Below, piece by piece: positions 9,967-39,845 of a DNA stretch of 64,000 nt (the stretch's first letter is position 1; every line of letters starts with the position of its first letter). This stretch comes from Halioglobus japonicus. GTDB taxonomy: Bacteria; Pseudomonadota; Gammaproteobacteria; Pseudomonadales; Halieaceae. Under the pieces are notes generated by a model. That model saw only the letters and a list, made by a program, of their open reading frames with translations, was not told the origin of the DNA and made no database searches. Position numbers and translations under genes: made by a program. The stretch covers positions 1,736,001 through 1,800,000 of the forward strand of contig NZ_CP019450.1 of NCBI RefSeq assembly GCF_001983995.1, in the 5' to 3' direction.

Positions 9967-10572
9967 GTGGCCGAGCAAGACCCAAAACAGCCCGAAAACG
10001 AGATCCAGGAAGAACAGTCCACTGGCGTGGAGGTTGAACTGGAAACCGCCGAAGAAGTGGCTGCCGCTGAAGCAGCAGAAGCAGAAGCAGAAGCAGAAGC
10101 AGAAGCAGAGGCTTCGCCGGACGATGAAGTGGCCCAGCTGCAGGAAGAACTGGCTGCTGCCAAAGACGCCGCCCTGCGCGCCCAGGCCGAGGCCCAGAAC
10201 GCCAAGCGCCGCGCCGATCAGGACGTGGAAAAGGCCCGCAAATTTGCCCTTGAACGCTTTGCCGGTGAGTTGCTGCCCGTCGCCGACAACCTGGAACGCG
10301 CCCTCGAGGCCGCCTCTGGCGATGACGAGGCCATCAAGCCGATTGCCGAAGGCGTTGAGCTGACCCTTAAGAGCCTGCTGGACGTCCTCGGCAAGCAGAA
10401 TATCGAAGTGGTAGAGCCCAATGGCGAGCCCTTCGACCCCAATCTGCACCAGGCCATGAGCATGATCGAGAACCCCGAGGTAGAGCCCAACACCGTAATC
10501 GCGGTAATGCAGAAAGGCTACACCCTGAACGGCCGTCTCATCCGCCCCGCCATGGTAATGGTCAGCAAATAA
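9967..10572 (+). CDS. grpE: Nucleotide exchange factor GrpE
   Basis: GrpE drives ADP release from DnaK. The 201-residue protein starts at GTG. An unusually acidic N-terminal region (residues about 5-58) contains a pure Glu-Ala repeat encoded by a hexanucleotide tract. It is followed by the long dimerisation helix ([28 protein letters not shown]) and the beta-domain with [14 protein letters not shown] and [22 protein letters not shown], all typical. Downstream lies a palindromic repeat element before dnaK. Confidence 0.96.
10078..10107 (+). repeat. Hexanucleotide tandem repeat inside grpE
   Basis: Five perfect copies of GAAGCA encode Glu-Ala pairs in the disordered N-terminus of GrpE. Because the unit is a multiple of three, copy-number changes by slippage would alter the tail length without breaking the frame. 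Confidence 0.9.
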
Positions 10573-27319: not shown

Positions 27320-30300
27320 TTAGTGGGCCCGTGGTTTCGGTCCGAACACATGAATTTCAAGTTTCTGTTGGTTTGGATCGAATGTGATTTCACACAGACC
27401 TCCAATTGCATTATCCAGATCTCCGAGAGCCGAAAGCTGAAAATCTGTAGACAAATCCGGATTTACTGGCGCTACTGATGAGCAAGCTCGAAAAGTCGAA
27501 TTTCCGCTCATGTACTCGAAAATATTACTATCCACCTCTAGAAAGAAATCCGTCGTCTCGAGCTTGCCTATTAGAGATAAGCTGCCCCAAATTGACCTAT
27601 ATAGCGCCACTGTCATTGGCGGAGTTTGTTCGAAGGGTATACATAGCGGTTCAACTCTATTAATGCTTATCACATTGGTTCGCTTTAGCTCTCGCGAATC
27701 GCATATATCTTCTATTGCGAGTTCCACGAATCTTTGCAAGTCCACTCCGCGTTGCATTGGTACTTTTGAAAAGTACATATCTAATACGCGAAGGGAGTTG
27801 GCGATCAGCCATGATTGCGTATGGCAGTCGCTCGGCGATATGGGAGCGCTATCTGATTGTAACTTGAGTCGCTCATCGAAATGTGAGGATATAGCATCGC
27901 GTCTTTCTCTCTGGAACTCGAAATGCTGTGACATTTCATTCTCGGCTAAATTTGCTGCCACTGACATTTCATGAGCGTATTCTAGGGCTTTGTTCTTTAT
28001 GGAAATAGCATCGTAGAGCTTTCGAAGAATGCCGAGGACGCCAAGAATCAGGATTAGGTAGCCAGTATATGCCCACCAGGTTCTCCATGGGGCAGTTGCG
28101 ACATTAACGTGTACCATCGAAGACTCGGTGCTCCATGTTCCTTCCAAGTTTGTTGCTTGGATCTCAAAGCGATATCCGCCAGCGGGTAGGTTTGTGTAAG
28201 TGGCGGAGTGATCTCTTCCTGAATACACCCACTCCTCTTGTAGGCCAAGGAGGCGATATCGATATTCATATGAGTCATGTGCAATGTAGTCCAGGACTGA
28301 AAACTTGAACATCATGAACATATCGTCATGCTTTAAGTGTACTTCCGCTTTTTCTGAGCCAAAGTTTGTTTGAACATCAATTGCCTGTGACTTGATACTT
28401 GTAACTCTCAGTTGGGGCGACTTGATTTCCGTTGATACATCTTGGGGGAAAATTTTGTTGTAACCATTGACTCCTCCAAAGTATAAGTTCCCATCGTCGT
28501 CTTTGAATGATGCAGCGAAATTGAAATCATTTCCTTGAAGTCCGTCTTTTACCAAGAAGTGGCGTAGCGGTGTTTTGTCATGGCTGAACAAGAGAACCCC
28601 CTTCTGAGTTGCAGTCCATATTCGACCTAAATCGTCAATTTCGATGCTGTAAACAGTGGTGTTCGAGTTTTCTTTGGAGATAGCTCTAGCCATAGCGCTC
28701 AGCGACTCACTGTCGCTCTCGAACTTTACATAAAATAAGCCGTGATCTTTGGTGCCAATATAAAGATCGCCGCCGGCGCCACTTTGAAGGGCGAGGATTC
28801 GAGGGGCACTTTCGAGACCATCGAACTTTATGTCGACCACTTGAAACTCAGACACGTCTTTCGAAAGACGATATATGCGCTTCTCACTTACAGCATAGAT
28901 TTCTCCATCAGATACCTCTTTGACTAAAGTCACTGAAGCGTCATCAATTGATAAATCACGAACTAACTCTCCATTTGAAAGCAGATACAAGCCAGAGTTG
29001 TATGTGGCTATCCAGATGTGGCCTGAGTTCGATTGAAGTATTGAAGTGACAGCGAGGCTTTTTGCTGAAGTCGGTAAAGGGCGCTCTACAAGCCCGGAAT
29101 TTGTGTGTACTAGGTCGATACCATGTTCCTGATAACCGACCCAAATTGACTCACCAATAGTTGTTAACGTCATGATACGGTGGTCAGTGAGAGCATTTGG
29201 ATGGCCCTTGTCAAATCTTTCATGAAAACCTGATTCATCGAGTCTAAATAGTCCGTTGTAGGTGCCAATCCATAATTGTCCCGATGAATCTTTCGTAAAT
29301 GCCAGCACCTCTGGGTGTATTCCAGAGCTTTGTGCGCTATGAAGCTCCATTTCGATTTTCGTTGCGGCGTAGAGACCCTGGTAGGTGCCTATCCATAGCT
29401 CGGAGTCAGTTTTCAGCAGGGCCATTACTGAGTCGTTGCCTAAAGACGTATTTTCGGCTCTGATTACCTCTGCTAACTTAAGATTGCTCGAAAAAATATA
29501 GATCCCTTTGTTGGTCAAAACAAATAGAGCATTGTCGATCCAGAGTACTTTCGCGATGTGAATGTCATACTTTTCCGGAAGTTCAATGCGAGAGATACTT
29601 GATCCGAAGTCTGGTGAAAGTTTAGAAATCTGCCCTGTGCGGTCAGCAACTATCAGCGAATTCTCAGGCCCTTCACTTATGGCAACTATTTGCTGCTCGA
29701 TCTCGGCTGTGGATAGCTTCTCAAACGAGTTCCCACTGACGAAAAATTTGGCTAGACCGAACGAGCCTCCAATAAAAGTGTTTCCTGTTTGTGTATGTGT
29801 TATTGAAACAATTTCGAAGGAGTTTCGCTGTTCGAGGGCGTCGGTACGGACTTGAACTAACTTTGATGTCCCCTTGAGCCTGAATACGTTAGTGCGAGTA
29901 GTGATCCAATTCTGAGAAGTCTCGTCTTTCGATACACTGGTTATATTGGTTAAGTCGAAATTCGTACTATGGCTAACAATCGTTGCTGCATGATTGTTGA
30001 GTGAAATTGAGACCAGCCCAATGCCGTATGCGGCCACCAAGATATCACCCGTATTGGACTCGCTAATTCCGCGAATGTCGGAGAAGAGGACTTTGCCTTC
30101 CTTTGACCTGGCTTCCTGAAACCTAGATAGAGTACTCCCATCAAATTTGTACAGTCCTTCTTGTGTGCCAATCCACAAGTTTCTCATTGAATCTTGATGT
30201 AATGAGGTAATTGTTGGCTGCGCAATTTGCTGAGCGAATGTTGGGGAAACTATTTGATAGTTCGAGTAGACCGGACCGCTGGCTCCGAGAAAGAGAGCTG

Positions 30301-30334
30301 CTATCAAGGTTAAGAATCTTAGATCGATGTGCAT
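27320..30334 (-). CDS. Propeller sensor with degenerate histidine-kinase domain
   Basis: About 1004 residues. A signal peptide (MHIDLRFLTLIAALFLGASGPVYS) leads to a periplasmic domain of Reg_prop beta-propeller repeats (many copies of the form WIGTQEGLYKFDG, WIGTYNGLFRLDE), then a Y_Y_Y domain (YEYRYRLLGLQEEWVYSG), one membrane segment (WWAYTGYLILILGVLGILRKL), and a cytoplasmic part like HisKA_2-HATPase kinases. In that part the phosphoacceptor HRxKNNLQ is replaced by RERRDAISSHFDERLKLQS and the N-box is absent, so it is probably a pseudokinase. It is in tandem with a full hybrid kinase and may heterodimerise with or modulate it. The DNA is clearly AT-richer than the flanks. Confidence 0.85.
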   Translation of the reverse strand: MHIDLRFLTLIAALFLGASGPVYSNYQIVSPTFAQQIAQPTITSLHQDSMRNLWIGTQEGLYKFDGSTLSRFQEARSKEGKVLFSDIRGISESNTGDILVAAYGIGLVSISLNNHAATIVSHSTNFDLTNITSVSKDETSQNWITTRTNVFRLKGTSKLVQVRTDALEQRNSFEIVSITHTQTGNTFIGGSFGLAKFFVSGNSFEKLSTAEIEQQIVAISEGPENSLIVADRTGQISKLSPDFGSSISRIELPEKYDIHIAKVLWIDNALFVLTNKGIYIFSSNLKLAEVIRAENTSLGNDSVMALLKTDSELWIGTYQGLYAATKIEMELHSAQSSGIHPEVLAFTKDSSGQLWIGTYNGLFRLDESGFHERFDKGHPNALTDHRIMTLTTIGESIWVGYQEHGIDLVHTNSGLVERPLPTSAKSLAVTSILQSNSGHIWIATYNSGLYLLSNGELVRDLSIDDASVTLVKEVSDGEIYAVSEKRIYRLSKDVSEFQVVDIKFDGLESAPRILALQSGAGGDLYIGTKDHGLFYVKFESDSESLSAMARAISKENSNTTVYSIEIDDLGRIWTATQKGVLLFSHDKTPLRHFLVKDGLQGNDFNFAASFKDDDGNLYFGGVNGYNKIFPQDVSTEIKSPQLRVTSIKSQAIDVQTNFGSEKAEVHLKHDDMFMMFKFSVLDYIAHDSYEYRYRLLGLQEEWVYSGRDHSATYTNLPAGGYRFEIQATNLEGTWSTESSMVHVNVATAPWRTWWAYTGYLILILGVLGILRKLYDAISIKNKALEYAHEMSVAANLAENEMSQHFEFQRERRDAISSHFDERLKLQSDSAPISPSDCHTQSWLIANSLRVLDMYFSKVPMQRGVDLQRFVELAIEDICDSRELKRTNVISINRVEPLCIPFEQTPPMTVALYRSIWGSLSLIGKLETTDFFLEVDSNIFEYMSGNSTFRACSSVAPVNPDLSTDFQLSALGDLDNAIGGLCEITFDPNQQKLEIHVFGPKPRAH

Positions 30335-30433
30335 TTCGAAAAGTCCTGCTCCGGTAAGGATCAAGATGTTCTAAATGGCGAAAATCCTTCTTGCTACTCC
30401 TTCAACGAAAAATACTGATAGTTCCGTTATCGA

Positions 30434-33400
30434 TCAATCGACGTAAATTCGCCTAAATTCGTTTTGAAACTCAGAGTCGGCTGTCCTAAGGAGATTGAGT
30501 TTGAAGAGATAGTCAGTATCCTCATTCTTCTTTGCGCCTTCCTCAATTGTCGCGCTTATCCCTCGCACTTTTATCGCTCCTACGTTTGCGCTCAACGATT
30601 TTATTGCGTGGGCAGTGCGCGCAATTTCTGTAAAGTCATTGCTCTCGATGCAGTGTTCAATTTGAGATAGCTTCTGGGCGAACTGCTCGCGATAGCCGTC
30701 GAAGACTTTGAAAAGCAGGGGCTTACCTGTGGATTTCTCAACTTCCAGAATTGTTGAAATAGCCTTCTCATCAAAAATATCCTGATGCAGATCAACCACT
30801 TCCAGGCTATTGGTGTTGTTAGTGAACTGAATATCTTTCAGTCCGGATCTTGTTGAAATGTCGAGGGCGCCCTTAATGTCGTCAATGGAAAATGGTTTAG
30901 AAATGAAATGATCCATTCCAGCATCAACACATTTTTCACGATCAGTTGGATTTATTCCTGCGGTGAGAGCGACAATTTTCGCCGGTTTTAGTTTGAGCTC
31001 CGTCTCAAATTTTCTGATCTTCTTAGTAGCGTCGAATCCGTCCATTACAGGCATCTGACAGTCCATCAGTATCAGATCAAATGGGTTGGATTTATACTTG
31101 GTCACAGCTTCTTCGCCATTTTCCGCAATCGTTACGGTAAGCCCCATCATTCCAAGCATTTCTATTACAATTTCTTGGTTGGTTGAAACATCTTCGGCAA
31201 CAAGAATCGAAATTTGATTCTCATTGTTCTTTGGCGACTTCGTATCAATATTGCTTTCAGCCCGACGTTCATTGAGCTGTTTCTTGAGATTTTTAGCGTT
31301 CTGTAGAGTAAATGGCTTCGGGAGCGTCATCCATTTACTCGATATAATTTCAGGCCGCACTTCGTTCATTCGAAGCATTAGATACCCACAAGAGATGTTT
31401 TCAACCATGAGTGACTGTTCCAGTTGTGGATATTCTCTCAGATCGTTGAAGTCTGCTATGTAGACTCCATTGGGGTCGAGTGCATTTTCCTCTTTATACC
31501 AACTGCATTGAATGTTCTCGAAAGCCAGATGGCTTTCGATCGTCTTATAAAAAGCAGGTGTAGAAGTCGCGATATAAACAGTGGTGGGATGTTGGGCTAT
31601 CGAGTCTGACTTGGTAGTTTCTGGTTGTAAGGGGACGCATATAGATATTTCAGTGCCTACGCCGATTTCAGATCTAATTTCAATTTCGCCGCCCATAATC
31701 CCAATATAGTGCTTTGAGATTGACAGACCTAAGCCGGTGCCACCATATTCACGAGTTGTGCTTGCGTCAGCTTGAGTGAACGCTTCGAAAACCCTTGCTT
31801 GGGTGTTTCCATCCATGCCGATACCGTCATCTCTAACCGATATTATCACCAATTCTTTTTGACTATCCGCATCACTGCTTCTAGTCGAGGCTAGAACATC
31901 AATACAACCGTGATGCGTGAATTTGATGGAGTTACTGACGAGATTCATTACAACCTGGCGAATCTTGGTCGGGTCACCGACATAAGTATTGCTAATCGAT
32001 GTTCCAATAATGACGTTAATATCCAGGTTCTTTCTTGCCGCAGGTTCTGCCTGTAAGTAGCAGACCTCATCAAGTAACTCTACCAAGCTAAATTCGATTT
32101 GCTCTAACTCGACTTTAGAGGCTTCTAGCTTTGAATAGTCGAGTATCTCATTGATAAGCGTGAGAAGTGCATTGCCGCTTTTATGGGCGGCTGTCGCAAA
32201 CTGCTTCTGCTGAGTATCCAATTCTGTGTGCAGTAGAAGCTCCGTCATGCCAATCATTCCATGCATAGGAGTGCGTATTTCATGACTCATGGTTGCAAGA
32301 AACTCAGACTTTGCAGTGTTTGCAGATTCCGCAGCTAGTCTCGCCTCTTGAAGATCAGAAGTTCTTTCATCAACCATCCGCTCAAGTTCTTGCTGTCTTT
32401 CAATAGCAGCGGCGGTCTGTCTCCGTTGTGCTCGCATATACAGGGCGAATAGGAACGAAGCCAAAGCCGTATAGGCCGCGTACGCCAGTGGGCTTTGCCA
32501 GGGTGGAGGTGAGACTTCTATGGGTAAAGATAGGGCATCCCAATTCCACTCGCCTGCCGTACTAGCTGCGGCTAACTTGAGTGTGTATGAGCCCGGTGGC
32601 AAAGTGGTAATAGATACTATTCTGGAGTCTGGTGATATGTTCCAGGTTGAGTTCAGCCCCTCAATTTTGTATGCATACTGGACAAGGTCGGGTGCTGAGA
32701 ATTCTGAAGCGTAGAATTCAATCGAAAGCATCTTGTCTTCGTATGTGAGATTTAACTTGTCGAGTTCATGGTACGGAACGTCAAACGTTCTGCGCTCGTT
32801 CATGACCTTGATGGAATAAATGGCTACTTCTGGCAGTTGTCCTGTATTTTGGATCAAAGCTGGATCAACAACGTTAAACCCCGAAATACCGCCAAACAGA
32901 AGCTTTCCGTCGACATCTGTAAAGGACGCTCCCATGTTGAATTCTAAACCTTGCAATCCATCTTCGATCCCAAAGTTGGTGGCTTCCGAGAGTGAAGGTG
33001 CGATTCGGGTCAGGCCTCTATTATGCGAAAGCCAAAGGTAGTCTTCAGAATCAATCTGAATTCCGTAAATGCTAGAGCTTGGGATGGTGATGTTAGAAAT
33101 ACCATTTTCAAACACTGGTCTGAGTTCTGTGCGGTAATCATAGGTCCATTTGGCTATGCCACCACCGGCGGTACCTAGCCAAAGTGTTCCATGGCTGTCT
33201 TCCTTGAAGGCCCAAATCATGTCACTTTCGAGACTGTTTGGATTTTGGCTATCTGTATAGATTCGACTAAAAGTCTCTTCTTCTATCAGAAAACGATTAA
33301 GTCCGTTTTGGGTGCCTATCCATATATAGCCAAGACTGTCCTCAAACATTGCTAGCACACGGTTGTCACTGATGCTTTGTATGTTGTACTCGTCATGTAG

Positions 33401-34864
33401 CAATTGTGTAAAAGAGTCGGACTCCTCGTTGTAGATATTGAGCCCGCCTCCATAAGTGCCGATTAGCAGCTCTCCACTTGATAGCCTAAGTAGTGATGTG
33501 ACGCCATTGCTGCTAATCGATGTGTCAGAAAGGGGGGAATGTCGATATACATCAACCTTGTTGTTGGTGAGGCTTAATCGATTTAGTCCACCATCATAGG
33601 TACCTATCCATAAGTACTCGTTGTCGGCAAGTAGACTCATTACGGTATCGGATGAAATGCCAGGGTCAGTAAATGGATTGATCCATTCAAATTCCTCTGA
33701 CCCCTCCGGTAGTCTATTGAGTCCTCTGTCGGTCGCTACCCATAAACTGCCGTCTTTGGTCCGGGCAAATGCGTTTACGGAACTGCTCGATAGTCCGCCA
33801 CGAACTTCATCGAACGCTTCGAAGCGGTTCTCGCTTCCGCTGGCAAGGCCATGGACTGTGCCGACCCAGTATTGGCCATCACGCGATTGGAAAATTGAGT
33901 ACGCCGCAATTTCTGGTAGGCCCGAATTTTGCTCTCTATATCGAACAAAGCTTTCTCCGGCTGGATCAAAAAGGTTGAGGCCATTCTCTGTGGCAAACCA
34001 CACATTGCTTTGTGCATCGACATATATCTCTGTAACGCTATTGCTTGAGATAGAATCTAACTGACTCTCCAGATGAGCGAAGTGCGTTGAAGAACCCTCT
34101 ACTGGGTCGTATCTGTAGGCTCCCTGATTTTCGGTAGCTATCCAAATTTTGTCAGCGGATTCAGCCGCAATGTAGGTCGGTTTGGCTTGCTCGGAGGTTG
34201 GTGTTGCTGTTGGTACGAGTCTATGTCTCTCAATTACCAAGTCTTCGATACTAATGCTAATCAGACCGGCGCGTTGGGTAGCTACCCAAACTACGCCGCT
34301 GTCCTCACTTTGATCGAAAGAATGGACGATCCCGAAATTCGGGATTTTTTGATTGTCTGGAATCAGATGTTTGAAGGTTTCCGAAACGGGGTCGAAAACG
34401 CTGATGCGATCTATATATCCGATCCATAGGCGTCCAGTGCTGTCAGCATATATAGATTGAATGTCGTCAGATAATAGAGAGTTTCGATCAGCGGGGTTGT
34501 ATCTGTATGCGCGAAACCCATTTGTTATCTGGTTGTAAAGGTTCAGGCCACCTCCATGGGTTGCAACCCATAGATTGCCCTCAATGTCTTCGTCGATACC
34601 TGAAATGGTATCAACTGTGAGTGAATCATCGATCTGTGCTGAGGCGGTGAAGCTTTCGAGGTGGCGACCAGTGTATTTGGTTAGTCCCTCCTGGGTCACG
34701 AGCCATAAGGCTCCCTGAGAATCCTGATGTATCTGCCTGACACTTTGTTGAGTAAGTTGGTCAGAGATTGGCGACTTGCTAAATCTAATATAGCGATGCT
34801 GGTCTAATGCATGTGTAGCTGCAGTAGCCCATATAAGTAGTACTAATAGAATCAAGCGCTGCAT
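30434..34864 (-). CDS. Giant hybrid histidine kinase: propellers-Y_Y_Y-HisKA-HATPase-REC-Hpt
   Basis: A 1476-residue hybrid sensor. A signal peptide is followed by two Reg_prop beta-propellers (residues about 25-690), a Y_Y_Y domain, and a membrane helix ([19 protein letters not shown]). The cytoplasmic part has HisKA with [19 protein letters not shown] (His861), HATPase with NLVSNSIKF, a degenerate receiver-like segment, a true receiver [13 protein letters not shown] (Asp1268), and an Hpt domain with [12 protein letters not shown] (His1419). A whole His-Asp-His phosphorelay is thus in one protein, but no DNA-binding domain is present. Such receptors often sense polysaccharides or other extracellular compounds. 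The final phosphate acceptor may be the REC-GGDEF-EAL protein at 38034-39845, which is an inference. Confidence 0.93.
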
Positions 34865-34954: not shown

Positions 34955-34995
34955 GGCGCGGAGCTAGGGGTAGGCAGTCCTAGGATCTCCGCGCC
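34955..34995. terminator. GC-rich hairpin after the repeat-protein gene
   Basis: GGCGCGGAG pairs perfectly with CTCCGCGCC, with an inner CTAGG/CCTAG stem. On the minus strand, downstream of the repeat-protein gene, the tail is GTCTTTACTTG, only weakly U-rich. It may act as a terminator separating this gene from the sensor kinase, or as a stabiliser. Confidence 0.5.
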
Positions 34996-35050: not shown

Positions 35051-35719
35051 CTATTTCAGGCCCCATTTGAAGGCATTCTGCTCTGCATAGGACTTCAAGC
35101 CCCACTTAAACGCGCTCTGTTCACCCGCAGATTTCAGGCCCCACTTAAAAGCTGTTTGCTCACCAAAAGACTTCAAGCCCCACTTAAATGCGCTTTGTTC
35201 GCTAGTCGATTTCAAACCCCACTTGAACGCAGTCTGATCACCAGTAGATTTAAGGCCCCATTTAAAGGCGCTTTGCTCGCTGAACGATTTCAGGCCCCAC
35301 TTGAATGCGCTTTGCTCCCCAGTTGTCTTGAGGCCCCATTTGAAGGCACTCTGCCCTGAGTGATTCATGGTGCCCCATTCATAGCTTGTAGAGCTTGTAA
35401 TCGATTGATTGGATTCGTTATTGCTGGGATTGGATTTGGCCCATTTGTTCCCGCCTGCAGCGCGCTCCGTTGCTCCCCATTTGAAGCTTTCAGTCTGCGT
35501 TTCGACACTCTTGCCCCACTTGTAGCCTGAGGTATTTGCTCGAGTGTAGGAGGTGGCTCCGGCAATTGAGTGGCTGACCCTCTGAATGGTGCTGTGGCCG
35601 CCAGAACCTAAAGTCGGGCCTGATTGAGAAACCTCAGCCAAAGTTGTGTTTGGTGCCGCGATCAGGAGTGCGGAAATACTAGAGATGCCCAGAGCTTTGA
35701 TCTTTGCCGAAGTTTTCAT
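35051..35719 (-). CDS. Secreted protein with eight 13-residue AFKWGLK repeats
   Basis: A 222-residue protein of no family known to me. A signal peptide (MKTSAKIKALGISSISALLIAAPNTTLA, cleavage likely before EVS) leads to a Ser/Gly/Asn-rich segment with degenerate motifs (GYKWGKSVETQ, SFKWGATE, NKWAKS, YEWGTMN). The last 98 residues are seven full copies of AFKWGLKSxxEQS plus a terminal AFKWGLK at the very C-terminus. Codons differ between copies while amino acids are kept, which argues for selection on the protein. Regularly spaced Trp-Gly and Gln could form stacked strands as in amyloid-like matrix proteins, or act as a ligand array. RBS AGGTAGG precedes the ATG. It lies between the sensors and the subtilase. 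Confidence 0.85.
   Translation of the reverse strand: MKTSAKIKALGISSISALLIAAPNTTLAEVSQSGPTLGSGGHSTIQRVSHSIAGATSYTRANTSGYKWGKSVETQTESFKWGATERAAGGNKWAKSNPSNNESNQSITSSTSYEWGTMNHSGQSAFKWGLKTTGEQSAFKWGLKSFSEQSAFKWGLKSTGDQTAFKWGLKSTSEQSAFKWGLKSFGEQTAFKWGLKSAGEQSAFKWGLKSYAEQNAFKWGLK
35054..35347 (-). repeat. 39-bp in-frame tandem repeat array (8 units, last partial)
   Basis: The unit encodes A-F-K-W-G-L-K-S/T-x-x-E/D-Q-S/T/N. Only positions 9 and 10 of the unit vary freely (TG, FS, TG, TS, FG, AG, YA). Third-codon bases vary from copy to copy, so the array is old and maintained rather than freshly duplicated. Confidence 0.95.
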
Positions 35720-36054: not shown

Positions 36055-38025
36055 TTACGGTTGCTTACCGAGTTGCTCAATCTGGCGGCGTTCCATCTCG
36101 TAGATTTGCAGCCATTGGAAGGGTGAATCGGGGGGTTCTTTGGCGTCGGGAGGCAGGCGTTCTACGTGCGATTTGATGCCCCAAACGCGGGTGTCACTGC
36201 GGCCTTTCTCAGCGGGGAAGGGCGACAGCATCAGTTCGAGGCCGGGGAGGCTGGTGTCGCCTTCATCGGTGATAATGGCGGGGCCCTGAAAGTGATCCTG
36301 GCCGGCGATGTCGTCTGCCAGGCTGAGGCCTTCGTTGCCGCAGCCGCGCCTTCCCAGAGTGATTGCGCGCGTGATGCTCACATAGCCCTGGCCCTGCTCG
36401 AACGGGCTGTAGGAGAGCAGGCCATCATGATTAATAGCGAGATCGGCGGTGCTGGTGAGCATGCACTTGACGTCGTCTGGAGTCAGTTCGGGTTCGAGTT
36501 GCAGTAACAGGGCTACCAGCCCGGACACCAGGGCAGCCGCTTGCGAGGAACCGGTCATTACGAATTCGCCGGTGTCCAGTACGTATTCGGGATAGTCCTT
36601 GGTGAGACTTGATCCAGGGCGGGTAAGTCCAGTCATGTGCCCGCCCGGCGCGACTATGTCAGGCTTGATGTGCGCCGAAGGGGTAGGGCCGCGCGATGAG
36701 AAATCCGGAAGATAATCGTCGCTGCGATCCAAGGGGGTCCACGAGTCGGTGATCGCCCCAACGGTGATAATGTAGGGCAGGTTGCCGGGTGAACCCACAC
36801 TCATCAATTCAGGGCCTTCGTTGCCAGCAGCTGCGACTACGACAATGCCTGCCTGCCAGGCGCGCATCACAGCTTGATTAACCGGATCCAGGAAATAGGG
36901 CCACCGGGGTCGCGATGCAAATGATAGGTTGAGCACACGGATATCAAATTTCTCGCGGTTATCGATGGCCCACTGAACGCCGCGCACAATATCCAGCATG
37001 CCCCCCTGACCTTCGACATTGAAAGCCTTGATCGTCACCAAATTGGCGTCGGGGGCGATGCCCTTGAAAGAGCCGGTTGGTTTGCCGTTGCGCAGCGTGG
37101 GGCCGCTATTGCCCAAAATACTGGTCATGTGCGAACCGTGCCCGCTTTCGTCAAAGGCTTCATCAACTTCACGACCATTGATCGCATCATAGCGGCCCAG
37201 AACCCGGGGTTGTCCCTGGGTGTTCAGTGACAGATGATCGTGTTCCCAAAGCCCTGAGTCGAGCACGGCAACGGTGACACCCGCGCCGCGAATATCGTGC
37301 AGATGCAGGCTGTCTGCCCCTGCTACGGTCGCGTAGTAGAAGTCATTGTGGTTATCCGGGTACGCGGGCGGACTTTCAACTTTACAATTCTCACCAAAGT
37401 GGATGGCGGCGCTTACTTTGTTCTGGCGCTCAGGGGAGGGGGCATCATCTTTATTGGCGAATTCGATCTCCAGGTGAGCCGTGCCCGAAAAGGGGGTAGT
37501 AGTGGTTTGGCTGAGGGCAAGTGACATTTTGCCTGGCGTGTTGGGCAGCGTGTCGGCAGCTACGTTACTGTCACCGACGCTCGCGCGGGTGACGGCTCCC
37601 CAGGCGGCAGGCCAGGTCATGTCTATCTGCGTTGCTTTCGCGGGGGCGTCACTTTTGTTGATTAAGCGCCAGCGCATGCTGTCAGGTGAAAACTCGAGCT
37701 GCAGGTAGCCGGCTACGTTACAGTCCGAAGAAGGCTCGGTGTACTCGTCGGGGGGATCGAACGCCAGGTCATCGATGTATCGATGTACCTTGTCTGAAAC
37801 CAGTATGGCTTCCAGTTGCTGGCGATTAAGCTGCGCCCCAACGGCATCAATGATGGGTAGCTGATGGGTGATCTCGCCCTTATGGGTAGCCACCAATGCG
37901 GCCATGGCGTCGGCAGATTCGCCCTGCAGCATCACGTGCAGAGGCTGTTCTTCGCTATTGGCGGTGAAGCTCACAGCACATGTCATGGCAATCAATGTCG
38001 CCCGCATCGGCGCCAAATATTTCAT
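36055..38025 (-). CDS. Secreted S8 family serine peptidase (subtilase)
   Basis: A 656-residue protein with a signal peptide (about residues 1-24) and a pro-region. The S8 triad is visible: Asp256 in VAVLDSGLWEHDH, His296 in ESGHGSHMTSI and Ser494 in TGSSQAAALVSG; the oxyanion Asn is in AAAGNEGPE. After the protease domain comes a tail of about 120 residues with RVWGIKSHVE, faintly like the repeat motif of the neighbouring secreted protein. It should act in the periplasm or outside the cell. Its start lies 8 bases after the stop of the REC-GGDEF-EAL gene, so the two form an operon. Confidence 0.92.
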   Translation of the reverse strand: MKYLAPMRATLIAMTCAVSFTANSEEQPLHVMLQGESADAMAALVATHKGEITHQLPIIDAVGAQLNRQQLEAILVSDKVHRYIDDLAFDPPDEYTEPSSDCNVAGYLQLEFSPDSMRWRLINKSDAPAKATQIDMTWPAAWGAVTRASVGDSNVAADTLPNTPGKMSLALSQTTTTPFSGTAHLEIEFANKDDAPSPERQNKVSAAIHFGENCKVESPPAYPDNHNDFYYATVAGADSLHLHDIRGAGVTVAVLDSGLWEHDHLSLNTQGQPRVLGRYDAINGREVDEAFDESGHGSHMTSILGNSGPTLRNGKPTGSFKGIAPDANLVTIKAFNVEGQGGMLDIVRGVQWAIDNREKFDIRVLNLSFASRPRWPYFLDPVNQAVMRAWQAGIVVVAAAGNEGPELMSVGSPGNLPYIITVGAITDSWTPLDRSDDYLPDFSSRGPTPSAHIKPDIVAPGGHMTGLTRPGSSLTKDYPEYVLDTGEFVMTGSSQAAALVSGLVALLLQLEPELTPDDVKCMLTSTADLAINHDGLLSYSPFEQGQGYVSITRAITLGRRGCGNEGLSLADDIAGQDHFQGPAIITDEGDTSLPGLELMLSPFPAEKGRSDTRVWGIKSHVERLPPDAKEPPDSPFQWLQIYEMERRQIEQLGKQP

Positions 38026-38033
38026 GCCGTGAA

Positions 38034-39845
38034 TCAGTCTTGTGGTTTGGGCGTCAGGTCAGCAGAGAAGTCTTGCTGCAGCGTGTCGGGAACATCTTCG
38101 GGATACAGCGGTCGGGCGAAATAGTATCCCTGGAGCAGATGGCAGCCTTTGGCCACGAGGTAGTCCAGCTGGTCTTTCTGTTCAATGCCTTCTGCGATCA
38201 CGCGTAAATTGAGGGTGTTCGACAAGGCAATAATGGCGTCGACTATCGCGGCACCATCGGTGGTGTCGAGGTCAGCGACAAAGCTCTGGTCGATTTTCAA
38301 TGTGTCGATCGGGAAGCGCTTCAAATAACTGAGCGAGGAATAGCCGGTGCCGAAGTCGTCTACCGCGACTTCCAGTCCAAGCTCCTTGAGCTCGCTCAGC
38401 TTTTTAATGTTGGCTGGCGCATCGTTCATGATGGCGCTCTCAGTGAGTTCCACTTCCAGGCGATTGGCGGGTATGTGAGCGCTTTCGAGGAAAGCGCGCA
38501 TGCGCTTGGGTAAATCGTCCTGATTGAACTGAATCGGTGAGATATTGACGCACACCCGAAACGGGGGGAGTCCCAGTGAATCCCAGTAGCGACAGTGGCG
38601 GTTTATCTCACCGAGCACCCAGTCGCCAAGCTCTATAATCTGGCCGGTACGTTCGGCCACCGGAATAAACTCCAGGGGTGAAATCATCCCCCTGTCGGGG
38701 TGCTTCCAGCGTACCAGGGCTTCCATGCTGACCACGGTGCCGGTCGCGGTATCAATCTGGGGCTGATAGCGCAGTTCCAACTGGTTGCTGCTCATGGCGT
38801 AGCGCAGTTCTTCTTCCATCTTGAGCTGTTCGACTGCCCGGGCGTTCATTTCTTCATCATAGAAGCGAAAGCAGGCTCGGCCTGCCGCCTTGGCTACATA
38901 CATTGCGGTATCCGCATTGCGAATCAGTGCATCAGGATCCTGGCCATCTTGCGGGAAGACAGCTATGCCAATGCTGGGAGTAACCACCGGGTTATGTGAT
39001 TGCAGAGCGATGGGTTCGGACAGCGTGTTGAGAATGCGCTTGGCCACTTTCTCAATATGCGCGCTGTCTTTTACATCCGATAGCACTACGGTAAATTCGT
39101 CGCCACCCAGGCGCGCTATTTCGGTGTTGCTGGTGTATTCGTGTTCGTCGTTGGCGCTGTTCTCAGTGTAGTAGTTGATCGCATCATCTTCGCGCAACTC
39201 CACGGTGAGTCGCTTGGCGATCTCTACCAGCAGACGGTCACCGCGACTGTGGCCGATGGAGTCGTTGATGCGCTTGAAGTGGTCGAGGTCGATAAACAAC
39301 AATGCAGCACCCGTATCGTGACGGCGGCAACGCTTGAGAATTCGATTGAGCTGTTCGTTGAAGCTACGTCGGTTGGGCAGGCTGGTCAGTGGGTCGTAGT
39401 AAGCCAGATAGCGCAGCCGGTCTTCCTGGCGCTTGAGCGCGTTGAAAGCGTCTGAGGCGCGCAGCATGTACTGCACATCCCGGCCCAGCAGTGACCAGTT
39501 CACAGGTTTGGTTTTGTACTGAGTGGCGCCCGCCTGGAATCCCTGGTCAATAGATTCGCGATCGTCCGAACCAGTGACGATCATGATAGGGATGGATTCC
39601 CCCTGGGGCATCTGGCGAATTCGCTGGCACACTTCCAGGCCCGTCATGCCGGGCATTTCTACATCCAGGAAAACAAGGTCGGGTCGCTCGCGGGCGAAGA
39701 CGTCGAGCGCTTCGGTACCATCGGCGGCTTCAACCACCACCATGTCTTCTGCCTCAAGGCACTGGCGAGTGAGCAGACGAACATTGAAGTCGTCATCGCA
39801 TACCAGAATTTTCGCGCGATAATGCGCTCGATCTTCACTGATCAT
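38034..39845 (-). CDS. Response regulator with GGDEF and EAL domains
   Basis: A 603-residue cytoplasmic c-di-GMP enzyme. An N-terminal receiver (KILVCDDDFNVRLL; phosphate site LVFLDVEMPGMTG; Lys in YKTKPVNW) is followed by a GGDEF domain (ARLGGDEFTVVLSD) and an EAL domain with all key motifs (EALVRW, ELTES, DDFGTGYSSL, LKID, IAEGIE). Both activities may be present. There is an unusual Asn/Glu-rich insertion of about 25 residues before GGDEF that separates the RxxD-like REDD from the active site, so product inhibition may be altered. It is transcribed upstream of the subtilase. Confidence 0.93.
   Translation of the reverse strand: MISEDRAHYRAKILVCDDDFNVRLLTRQCLEAEDMVVVEAADGTEALDVFARERPDLVFLDVEMPGMTGLEVCQRIRQMPQGESIPIMIVTGSDDRESIDQGFQAGATQYKTKPVNWSLLGRDVQYMLRASDAFNALKRQEDRLRYLAYYDPLTSLPNRRSFNEQLNRILKRCRRHDTGAALLFIDLDHFKRINDSIGHSRGDRLLVEIAKRLTVELREDDAINYYTENSANDEHEYTSNTEIARLGGDEFTVVLSDVKDSAHIEKVAKRILNTLSEPIALQSHNPVVTPSIGIAVFPQDGQDPDALIRNADTAMYVAKAAGRACFRFYDEEMNARAVEQLKMEEELRYAMSSNQLELRYQPQIDTATGTVVSMEALVRWKHPDRGMISPLEFIPVAERTGQIIELGDWVLGEINRHCRYWDSLGLPPFRVCVNISPIQFNQDDLPKRMRAFLESAHIPANRLEVELTESAIMNDAPANIKKLSELKELGLEVAVDDFGTGYSSLSYLKRFPIDTLKIDQSFVADLDTTDGAAIVDAIIALSNTLNLRVIAEGIEQKDQLDYLVAKGCHLLQGYYFARPLYPEDVPDTLQQDFSADLTPKPQD

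Follow-up and report, generated by a model that had tools for sequence, protein, structure and literature searches.

The stretch of Halioglobus japonicus DNA analyzed here (64,000 nucleotides of contig NZ_CP019450.1, hereafter the window) carries a gene whose product has a signal-peptide-like start, recognized by eye, followed by near-identical tandem copies of a short peptide. The initial annotation was right in this observation, the family to which the gene belongs is real, and its repeat pattern is surprising: copies of the heptapeptide closing each repeat unit agree within a genome, whereas genomes often differ from one another in it, which went beyond the single-genome view of that annotation. 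Our preferred, still tentative reading, to which we give a probability of roughly 0.4, is that the gene encodes a secreted precursor of a multi-copy peptide or multivalent ligand, processed by a subtilase and sensed by a propeller kinase, both of them encoded nearby. It comes closest to one idea of the initial annotation, that of a ligand array.

The coding sequence (35051 to 35719, minus strand, stop codon included) specifies 222 amino acids and was delimited by the list of open reading frames (ORFs) and by homologues in the same frame. Residues 1 to 28 (35636 to 35719) form the signal-peptide-like segment; the signal peptide had been called clear, and what stands is a plausible start, similar to the N termini of the relatives, whose assignment comes from reading the sequence by eye. 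According to the alignment, residues 29 to 118 (35366 to 35635) comprise a conserved V-x-x-V-S-H-S-[LI]-A...YT-like segment, which reads VHRVSHSLA...YT-like in the window protein, and four degenerate Trp motifs (GYKWG, FKWG, NKWA, and YEWG) located before the array and absent from the initial annotation. Residues 119 to 222 (35054 to 35365) are the array itself, made of eight 13-residue units that each end in AFKWGLK, the last one meeting the stop codon; this is the array previously described as seven full copies plus a terminal AFKWGLK, counted in another phase. Both the ORF and Tandem Repeats Finder, which places the array at 35053 to 35354 with periods of 39, 78, and 117 and a score of up to 329, confirmed it. 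The unit consensus of the window protein is [NTS]-x-[SGA]-[GED]-Q-[STN]-AFKWGLK, so that the earlier count of only two free positions per unit was too strict, as positions 1, 2, 3, 4, and 6 vary among the eight units. The synonymous codon divergence noted earlier proved to be saturated, with a mean pS of 0.92 and a pN of 0.15 between the eight units. Over residues 29 to 118, approximately, pS is 0.73 and pN 0.35 with respect to the nearest relative (L031). The gene is present in a single copy in its own genome, and the family members carry from 2 to 20 units. In one set of members, the C terminus of the protein coincides with an exact unit end in all 29 that reach a stop codon.

Chance, low complexity, and an antisense artifact were rejected on the grounds of reading frame, gene order, and low pN/pS; given relatives that share the frame, the gene order, and the array and that show low pN/pS, neither chance nor a false ORF is at all likely. 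Homologues and purifying selection, the lack of which had been named in the initial annotation as grounds for rejecting its proposal, were both found. A long antisense ORF running across the array of L037 was taken for a codon artifact.

A sequence search recovered the repeat protein from 27 of 58 genomes, its own included, and a profile search detected it in 68 of 140 Halieaceae genomes, representing 20 of 28 genera; the expectation of copies in other genomes, with a signal-peptide-like start, was thereby borne out. All 16 matching genomes in a sample of 390 from the order belong to the Halieaceae, and the only match among 369 genomes sampled from the class is the H. japonicus genome itself. 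Named relatives include Seongchinamella, Pseudohalioglobus, Mangrovimicrobium, Haliea, Parahaliea, HTCC2148, and MAGs, some of which are labelled Halieaceae, a family of mostly marine bacteria. No relative of the repeat protein was found in viral contigs, and a phage origin was therefore rejected. Draft contigs stop inside the array at L039, L044, L046, L051 and L057, L118 and L119, and L120, which indicates that assemblies truncate the repeat gene and may hide it. A degenerate member in genome G089 (L158, 1937 to 2302, minus strand) has an undetermined base in the array region and is not counted among the 68 carriers.

The window protein matched no Pfam family up to an E value of 0.1, DUF5943 lying beyond that limit (E 0.67; 11 bits versus 27), and it matched neither an NCBIfam family nor a PDB sequence; Rfam gave no match between 34000 and 37000 of the window. 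Four of 24 relatives exceed a Pfam whole-protein cut-off, each for a different family: L045 for DUF7211 (66.9 versus 27), L041 for HTH_AraC (30.7 versus 26.6), L050 for OAF_C (29.2 versus 29), and L049 for DUF6180 (27.1 versus 26.9). In none of these cases does a single stretch pass, and we read them as weak matches summed over the repeats. The sole stretch passing on its own among the 24 relatives was to Lysostaphin_N, in L050, where the whole score is below the cut-off. This family (PF25533), which we take to be the N-terminal tandem repeats of lysostaphin with a period of 13 residues, shares that period with the array and gave weak matches in three of 25 members (scores of 28.4 bits, in L050, and 29.7 bits, with a cut-off of 60); unlike lysostaphin, however, the repeat protein stays below the cut-off and has no enzyme domain attached. 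KWG- or WG-repeat families are absent from the Pfam matches of the same number of members. The gene name "KWG repeat-containing protein" occurs in PMC5350142; the likeness is limited to the letters KWG. As the initial annotation had supposed, then, the repeat family appears to fit no Pfam, NCBIfam, or PDB-sequence family convincingly, and none of the open-access papers that our literature searches brought up describes it in its title or opening abstract lines.

To describe the heptapeptide, we assembled 54 arrays with a 13-residue period, each of three units or more and together comprising 431 units. The unit pattern required Gln, Thr, Glu, or His at position 5, Lys or Arg at position 9, and Trp or Gly at position 10, which means that these three positions are partly conditioned by the pattern, whereas positions 7, 8, 11, 12, and 13 and the mixing of Lys with Arg are unconditioned. 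The longest run matching the pattern was taken, so that odd boundary units outside it were uncounted (for instance, one before the L132 run), and some of the counted arrays are cut by contig ends. Left out were nine loci whose genomes were already represented by another locus, L056 (two units), L055 (which ends before the array), L109, L121, L141, L144, and L147 (fewer than three units by the pattern), L114, L119, L123, L124, and L142 (contig-end cuts or no match to the motif filter), the 12-residue arrays L137, L140, and L143, and L110, which the pattern missed since position 9 is Ile in all nine of its units.

In 48 of the 54 arrays, all units of the array share one heptapeptide (unit positions 7 to 13), and 31 different heptapeptides, or words, occur among the arrays. 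Position 9 is Lys in 28 arrays and Arg in 26, and no array mixes the two. Only one array each shows more than one residue at position 7, 8, 10, or 13; the number rises to three arrays for position 11, four for position 12, and nine for position 5, while the spacer positions 1 to 4 and 6 are mixed in 29 to 40 arrays. Among pairs of units from one array that reach a pS of 0.8 or more, all 150 share the heptapeptide if the first unit is excluded (17 arrays), as do 97.2% of 248 pairs if all units are included (32 arrays); the lower pS bins gave 88 to 98% identical pairs. At the same pS of at least 0.8, only 2.5% of 7,364 sampled pairs between genomes share the heptapeptide. The six spacer residues differ at 2.1 to 2.5 positions within arrays versus 3.3 between genomes. 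On a subtilase tree of 53 rows, built by a quick method and read without a shuffled control, the word changed at least 34 times, the floor being 29 for 30 words, and Lys and Arg were exchanged at least 15 times. Some members in one genus, g6, have a period of 12 residues; of these, L137 is uniform, and L140 and L143 are uniform except for the last unit or its end. These 12-residue arrays carry words such as RSRWRRD.

Because the heptapeptides remain identical where pS is saturated, their uniformity is not due to recency, and recent gene conversion alone fails to explain uniform words at saturated synonymous sites. Whole arrays change word together, after which the copies stay alike while synonymous sites drift, and turnover from one founder unit followed by purifying selection on the word explains the pattern. 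That copies agree within a genome past synonymous saturation and switch together between genomes suggests selection for a single exact short sequence.

The repeat gene lies in a set of five genes that share one direction and a conserved order. On the minus strand, a response regulator with GGDEF and EAL domains (38034 to 39845; 603 amino acids) is followed by an S8 subtilase located just upstream of the repeat gene (36055 to 38025; 656 amino acids; PF00082, E 8e-49), the repeat gene, a hybrid histidine kinase (30434 to 34864; 1,476 amino acids) for which Pfam gives a Reg_prop beta-propeller and Y_Y_Y sensor, a receiver, and an Hpt domain, and a second Reg_prop/Y_Y_Y protein (27320 to 30364; 1,014 amino acids) in which Pfam shows no kinase domain. 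The sensor part of the hybrid kinase matches the solved sensors 4a2l and 3v9f by sequence. The second Reg_prop/Y_Y_Y protein is possibly a co-receptor or a degenerate kinase; its identity among relatives is lower than that of the hybrid kinase. The full five-gene order was recovered in 18 of 27 fetched loci, the remaining nine being L054, without the second Reg_prop gene, L052, which is rearranged, and seven loci cut by contig ends.

The initial annotation had named as support a position of the copies next to sensors or a subtilase. Defining as adjacent two genes on the same contig and less than 2 kb apart, we found that every one of the 68 carriers has a subtilase match, with adjacency in 67, and that the kinase (E 1e-110) is matched in 57 of 68, with adjacency in 43; a few of these 57 matches are partial or probably belong to another propeller kinase (G004). 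Of the 25 carriers in which no kinase match is adjacent, 17 or more have a contig that ends less than 1 kb from the repeat gene, the array having probably broken the assembly there, while in several genomes of genus g6 the kinase is away from the repeat gene. The kinase was matched in 10 genomes that lack the repeat gene, and the subtilase in 11 in which no repeat gene was detected; of these 11, four end at the slot (G016, G070, G130, and G136) and G089 holds the degenerate member mentioned above, leaving six. In G008, which has no repeat gene, kinase, or second propeller gene, the subtilase directly adjoins the next conserved flanking gene. Conservation extends to genes beyond the cassette, so adjacency on its own is partly family synteny. 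In G084 (L126, 1313 to 2029, minus strand), the word AYKWGIQ ends in Gln and the subtilase matches as two overlapping pieces, which may mean that both genes are decaying or that the sequencing was at fault.

With one exact word per genome, many copies of it, and a protease and usually a propeller kinase alongside, the system looks like a multi-copy peptide precursor. We infer the function of the repeat protein from its sequence and context, and the mechanism would be as follows. The precursor would be exported to the periplasm or beyond, where the adjoining subtilase may trim it or cut between units, yielding many copies of one short peptide. The part carrying the sense would be the heptapeptide at unit positions 7 to 13, AFKWGLK in this case. 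The neighboring beta-propeller hybrid kinase might read either the peptide or the uncut array, and the output would pass via the GGDEF-EAL regulator to cyclic-di-GMP control, so that the system could report cell density, kinship, or envelope proteolysis.

A comparable layout is known from yeast precursors of the alpha-factor type, which contain a multi-copy pheromone and are processed by the S8 protease Kex2. As in alpha-factor, the putative secretory precursor has a pro-region and, after it, a series of near-identical peptide copies, the associated protease has a subtilase fold, and the peptide word differs between species. The bacterial system differs in that general dibasic sites are lacking, an acidic S1 residue is not apparent in the aligned neighboring subtilase, and the candidate receptor is a propeller histidine kinase. 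Indeed, dibasic (Kex2-type) sites between copies are not general, most junctions having one basic residue or none, and two adjacent Arg residues occur only in some words of one genus. No acidic S1 residue was seen when the subtilase was aligned to 9ues and 3afg, at the positions that we take to form S1. Cleavage after a terminal Arg is not general either, as the last array residue varies (Arg in 45 of the 54 arrays, Lys in 3, Asn in 3, and Gln, Gly, and Ser in one each). Short non-unit tails occur in L126, L130, and L133, and the last units are altered in the 12-residue arrays L140 and L143. Also counting against a precursor are G008, which keeps the subtilase without the repeat gene or either sensor, the distant kinase in several genomes of one genus, and a hairpin between the repeat and kinase genes. 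The most specific version, namely, an alpha-factor-like system of a Gram-negative family in which a secreted, species-specific word of up to 20 copies is cut by a dedicated subtilase, read by the propeller hybrid kinase, and fed to the cyclic-di-GMP regulator, with whole arrays switching words like mating-type or quorum dialects, is in our opinion improbable.

Multi-core RiPP precursors offer a second comparison. Cyanobactin precursors are processed by the subtilases PatA and PatG, and the present proteins likewise combine several core-like peptides per precursor with a subtilase nearby. Unlike in those systems, the signal segment is of Sec type, the cores are uniform rather than varied within a precursor, and no modification enzyme was found among the window genes scanned, five in Pfam and nine in NCBIfam. 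Against NCBIfam, the subtilase scored below threshold both for PatA (42.2 bits versus 421) and for its best match, mycosin (131.4 versus 278.75).

Alternatively, the units may be the beta-strands of a secreted repeat protein, as in a functional amyloid, a fiber, or a matrix sheet, in which like side chains stack in ladders and the copies hence match; the protein would be a biofilm component under cyclic-di-GMP control, and the subtilase a protease of maturation or dispersal. The GGDEF-EAL gene within the cluster agrees with this, as does the majority residue at two unit positions, both partly conditioned by the pattern, namely, Gln at position 5 (53 of 54 arrays) and Trp at position 10 (all 54). 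AlphaFold puts strands on the unit cores; in a 20-unit relative they are about 10 residues long and form a regular beta meander in its last ~110 residues (pLDDT of about 59 to 67, versus 25 to 55 before). However, the mean pLDDT is low, at 45.6 for the window protein (pTM 0.28) and 43.2 for the 20-unit relative (pTM 0.31), too low to rely on, so that the models neither show nor exclude beta structure and the stacked beta-strands or amyloid of the initial annotation were not borne out. Curli (CsgA) and other functional amyloids are secreted repeat proteins in which Gln and certain aromatic or hydrophobic positions are conserved; the secreted-looking repeats resemble them in those positions and in possible beta-strands, yet Pfam scans of the window protein and members gave no Curlin repeat match. 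Curlin (PF07012) is also absent from the H. japonicus genome, with a positive E. coli control, and the one CsgG-domain match above the cut-off there, a 313-amino-acid ORF, has neighboring ORFs that are unlike a curli operon by eye. Moreover, a stack should tolerate exchange among Ile, Leu, and Val or between Lys and Arg, which is almost absent within arrays, and members with two or three units exist. Two genomes, G086 and G102, have between subtilase and kinase only a short secreted-looking ORF, of 108 and 105 amino acids, respectively (L151, 8937 to 9263, and L154, 8678 to 8995, both minus strand), with one FQWG motif and no array. These ORFs suit a precursor better than a polymer. A structural role is possible but, in our view, rather unlikely. 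In the same two genomes, the subtilase is shorter, lipoprotein-like, and below the threshold of the subtilase search.

The low-confidence models would also agree with a disordered array that binds adhesively to the envelope, a sticky, coacervate-like or surface-binding polymer whose stickiness comes from Trp beside Lys or Arg together with Asp or Glu and whose avidity is tuned by the number of repeats. Lys or Arg does precede Trp in the 54 arrays, where the pattern demanded it, but L110 has Ile there throughout, the net charge per unit is small by eye, and such a function has no need of one exact word per genome, which makes this explanation distinctly improbable.

Finally, the array could be bait, that is, a dedicated substrate or inhibitor of the subtilase, with the sensor gauging how much of it is cut as a measure of envelope proteolysis. 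The presence of a subtilase match in all 68 carriers, beside the repeat gene in 67, favors this, as does G084, where a split subtilase match coincides with a word ending in Gln; the genomes with a subtilase match and no detected repeat gene, six at the strictest count, speak against it. Before a control was introduced, the word core correlated with the catalytic domain of the subtilase (partial r of 0.62 to 0.65; 25 genomes), but with the response regulator as the control the value was 0.13 (p 0.19; 25 genomes), and -0.03 with two outlying genomes removed. No link was found between core and sensor (0.02, p 0.41; 19 genomes), and the N-terminal part of the subtilase alone kept a weak one (r of 0.21 to 0.25, p of 0.02 to 0.03). 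Co-variation of the word with its partners is thus unsupported, and the loss of the catalytic-domain signal under control likewise weakens the bait explanation, which we deem very unlikely.

If the word is a signal, a peptide-language system would exist in Gram-negative bacteria, where to our knowledge such systems have rarely been described, with neighboring genes for its presumed maker, cutter, and reader and with about thirty dialects in nature available for testing. If it is structural, the arrays would define a new secreted repeat family that requires its units to match. On either reading, none of the family libraries searched contains a convincing entry for the protein.

Between the repeat stop codon and the kinase gene lies a strong stem-loop (34955 to 34995, minus strand), which suggests that transcription may end before the kinase gene and would suit separate, abundant expression of a structural protein. 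Across 21 loci, the mean lowest local energy downstream of the repeat gene is -24.6 kcal/mol versus -13.8 for mononucleotide shuffles, each locus surpassing its own shuffled mean, while upstream there is little hairpin signal (-15.7 versus -13.4). Hairpin energies alone were used as evidence; terminator counts were discarded as useless, being 18 of 21 loci versus 33 of 63 shuffles downstream and 8 of 21 versus 19 of 63 upstream. Elsewhere in the window, Tandem Repeats Finder reported a perfect AGCAGA hexamer repeat of six copies at 10074 to 10109.
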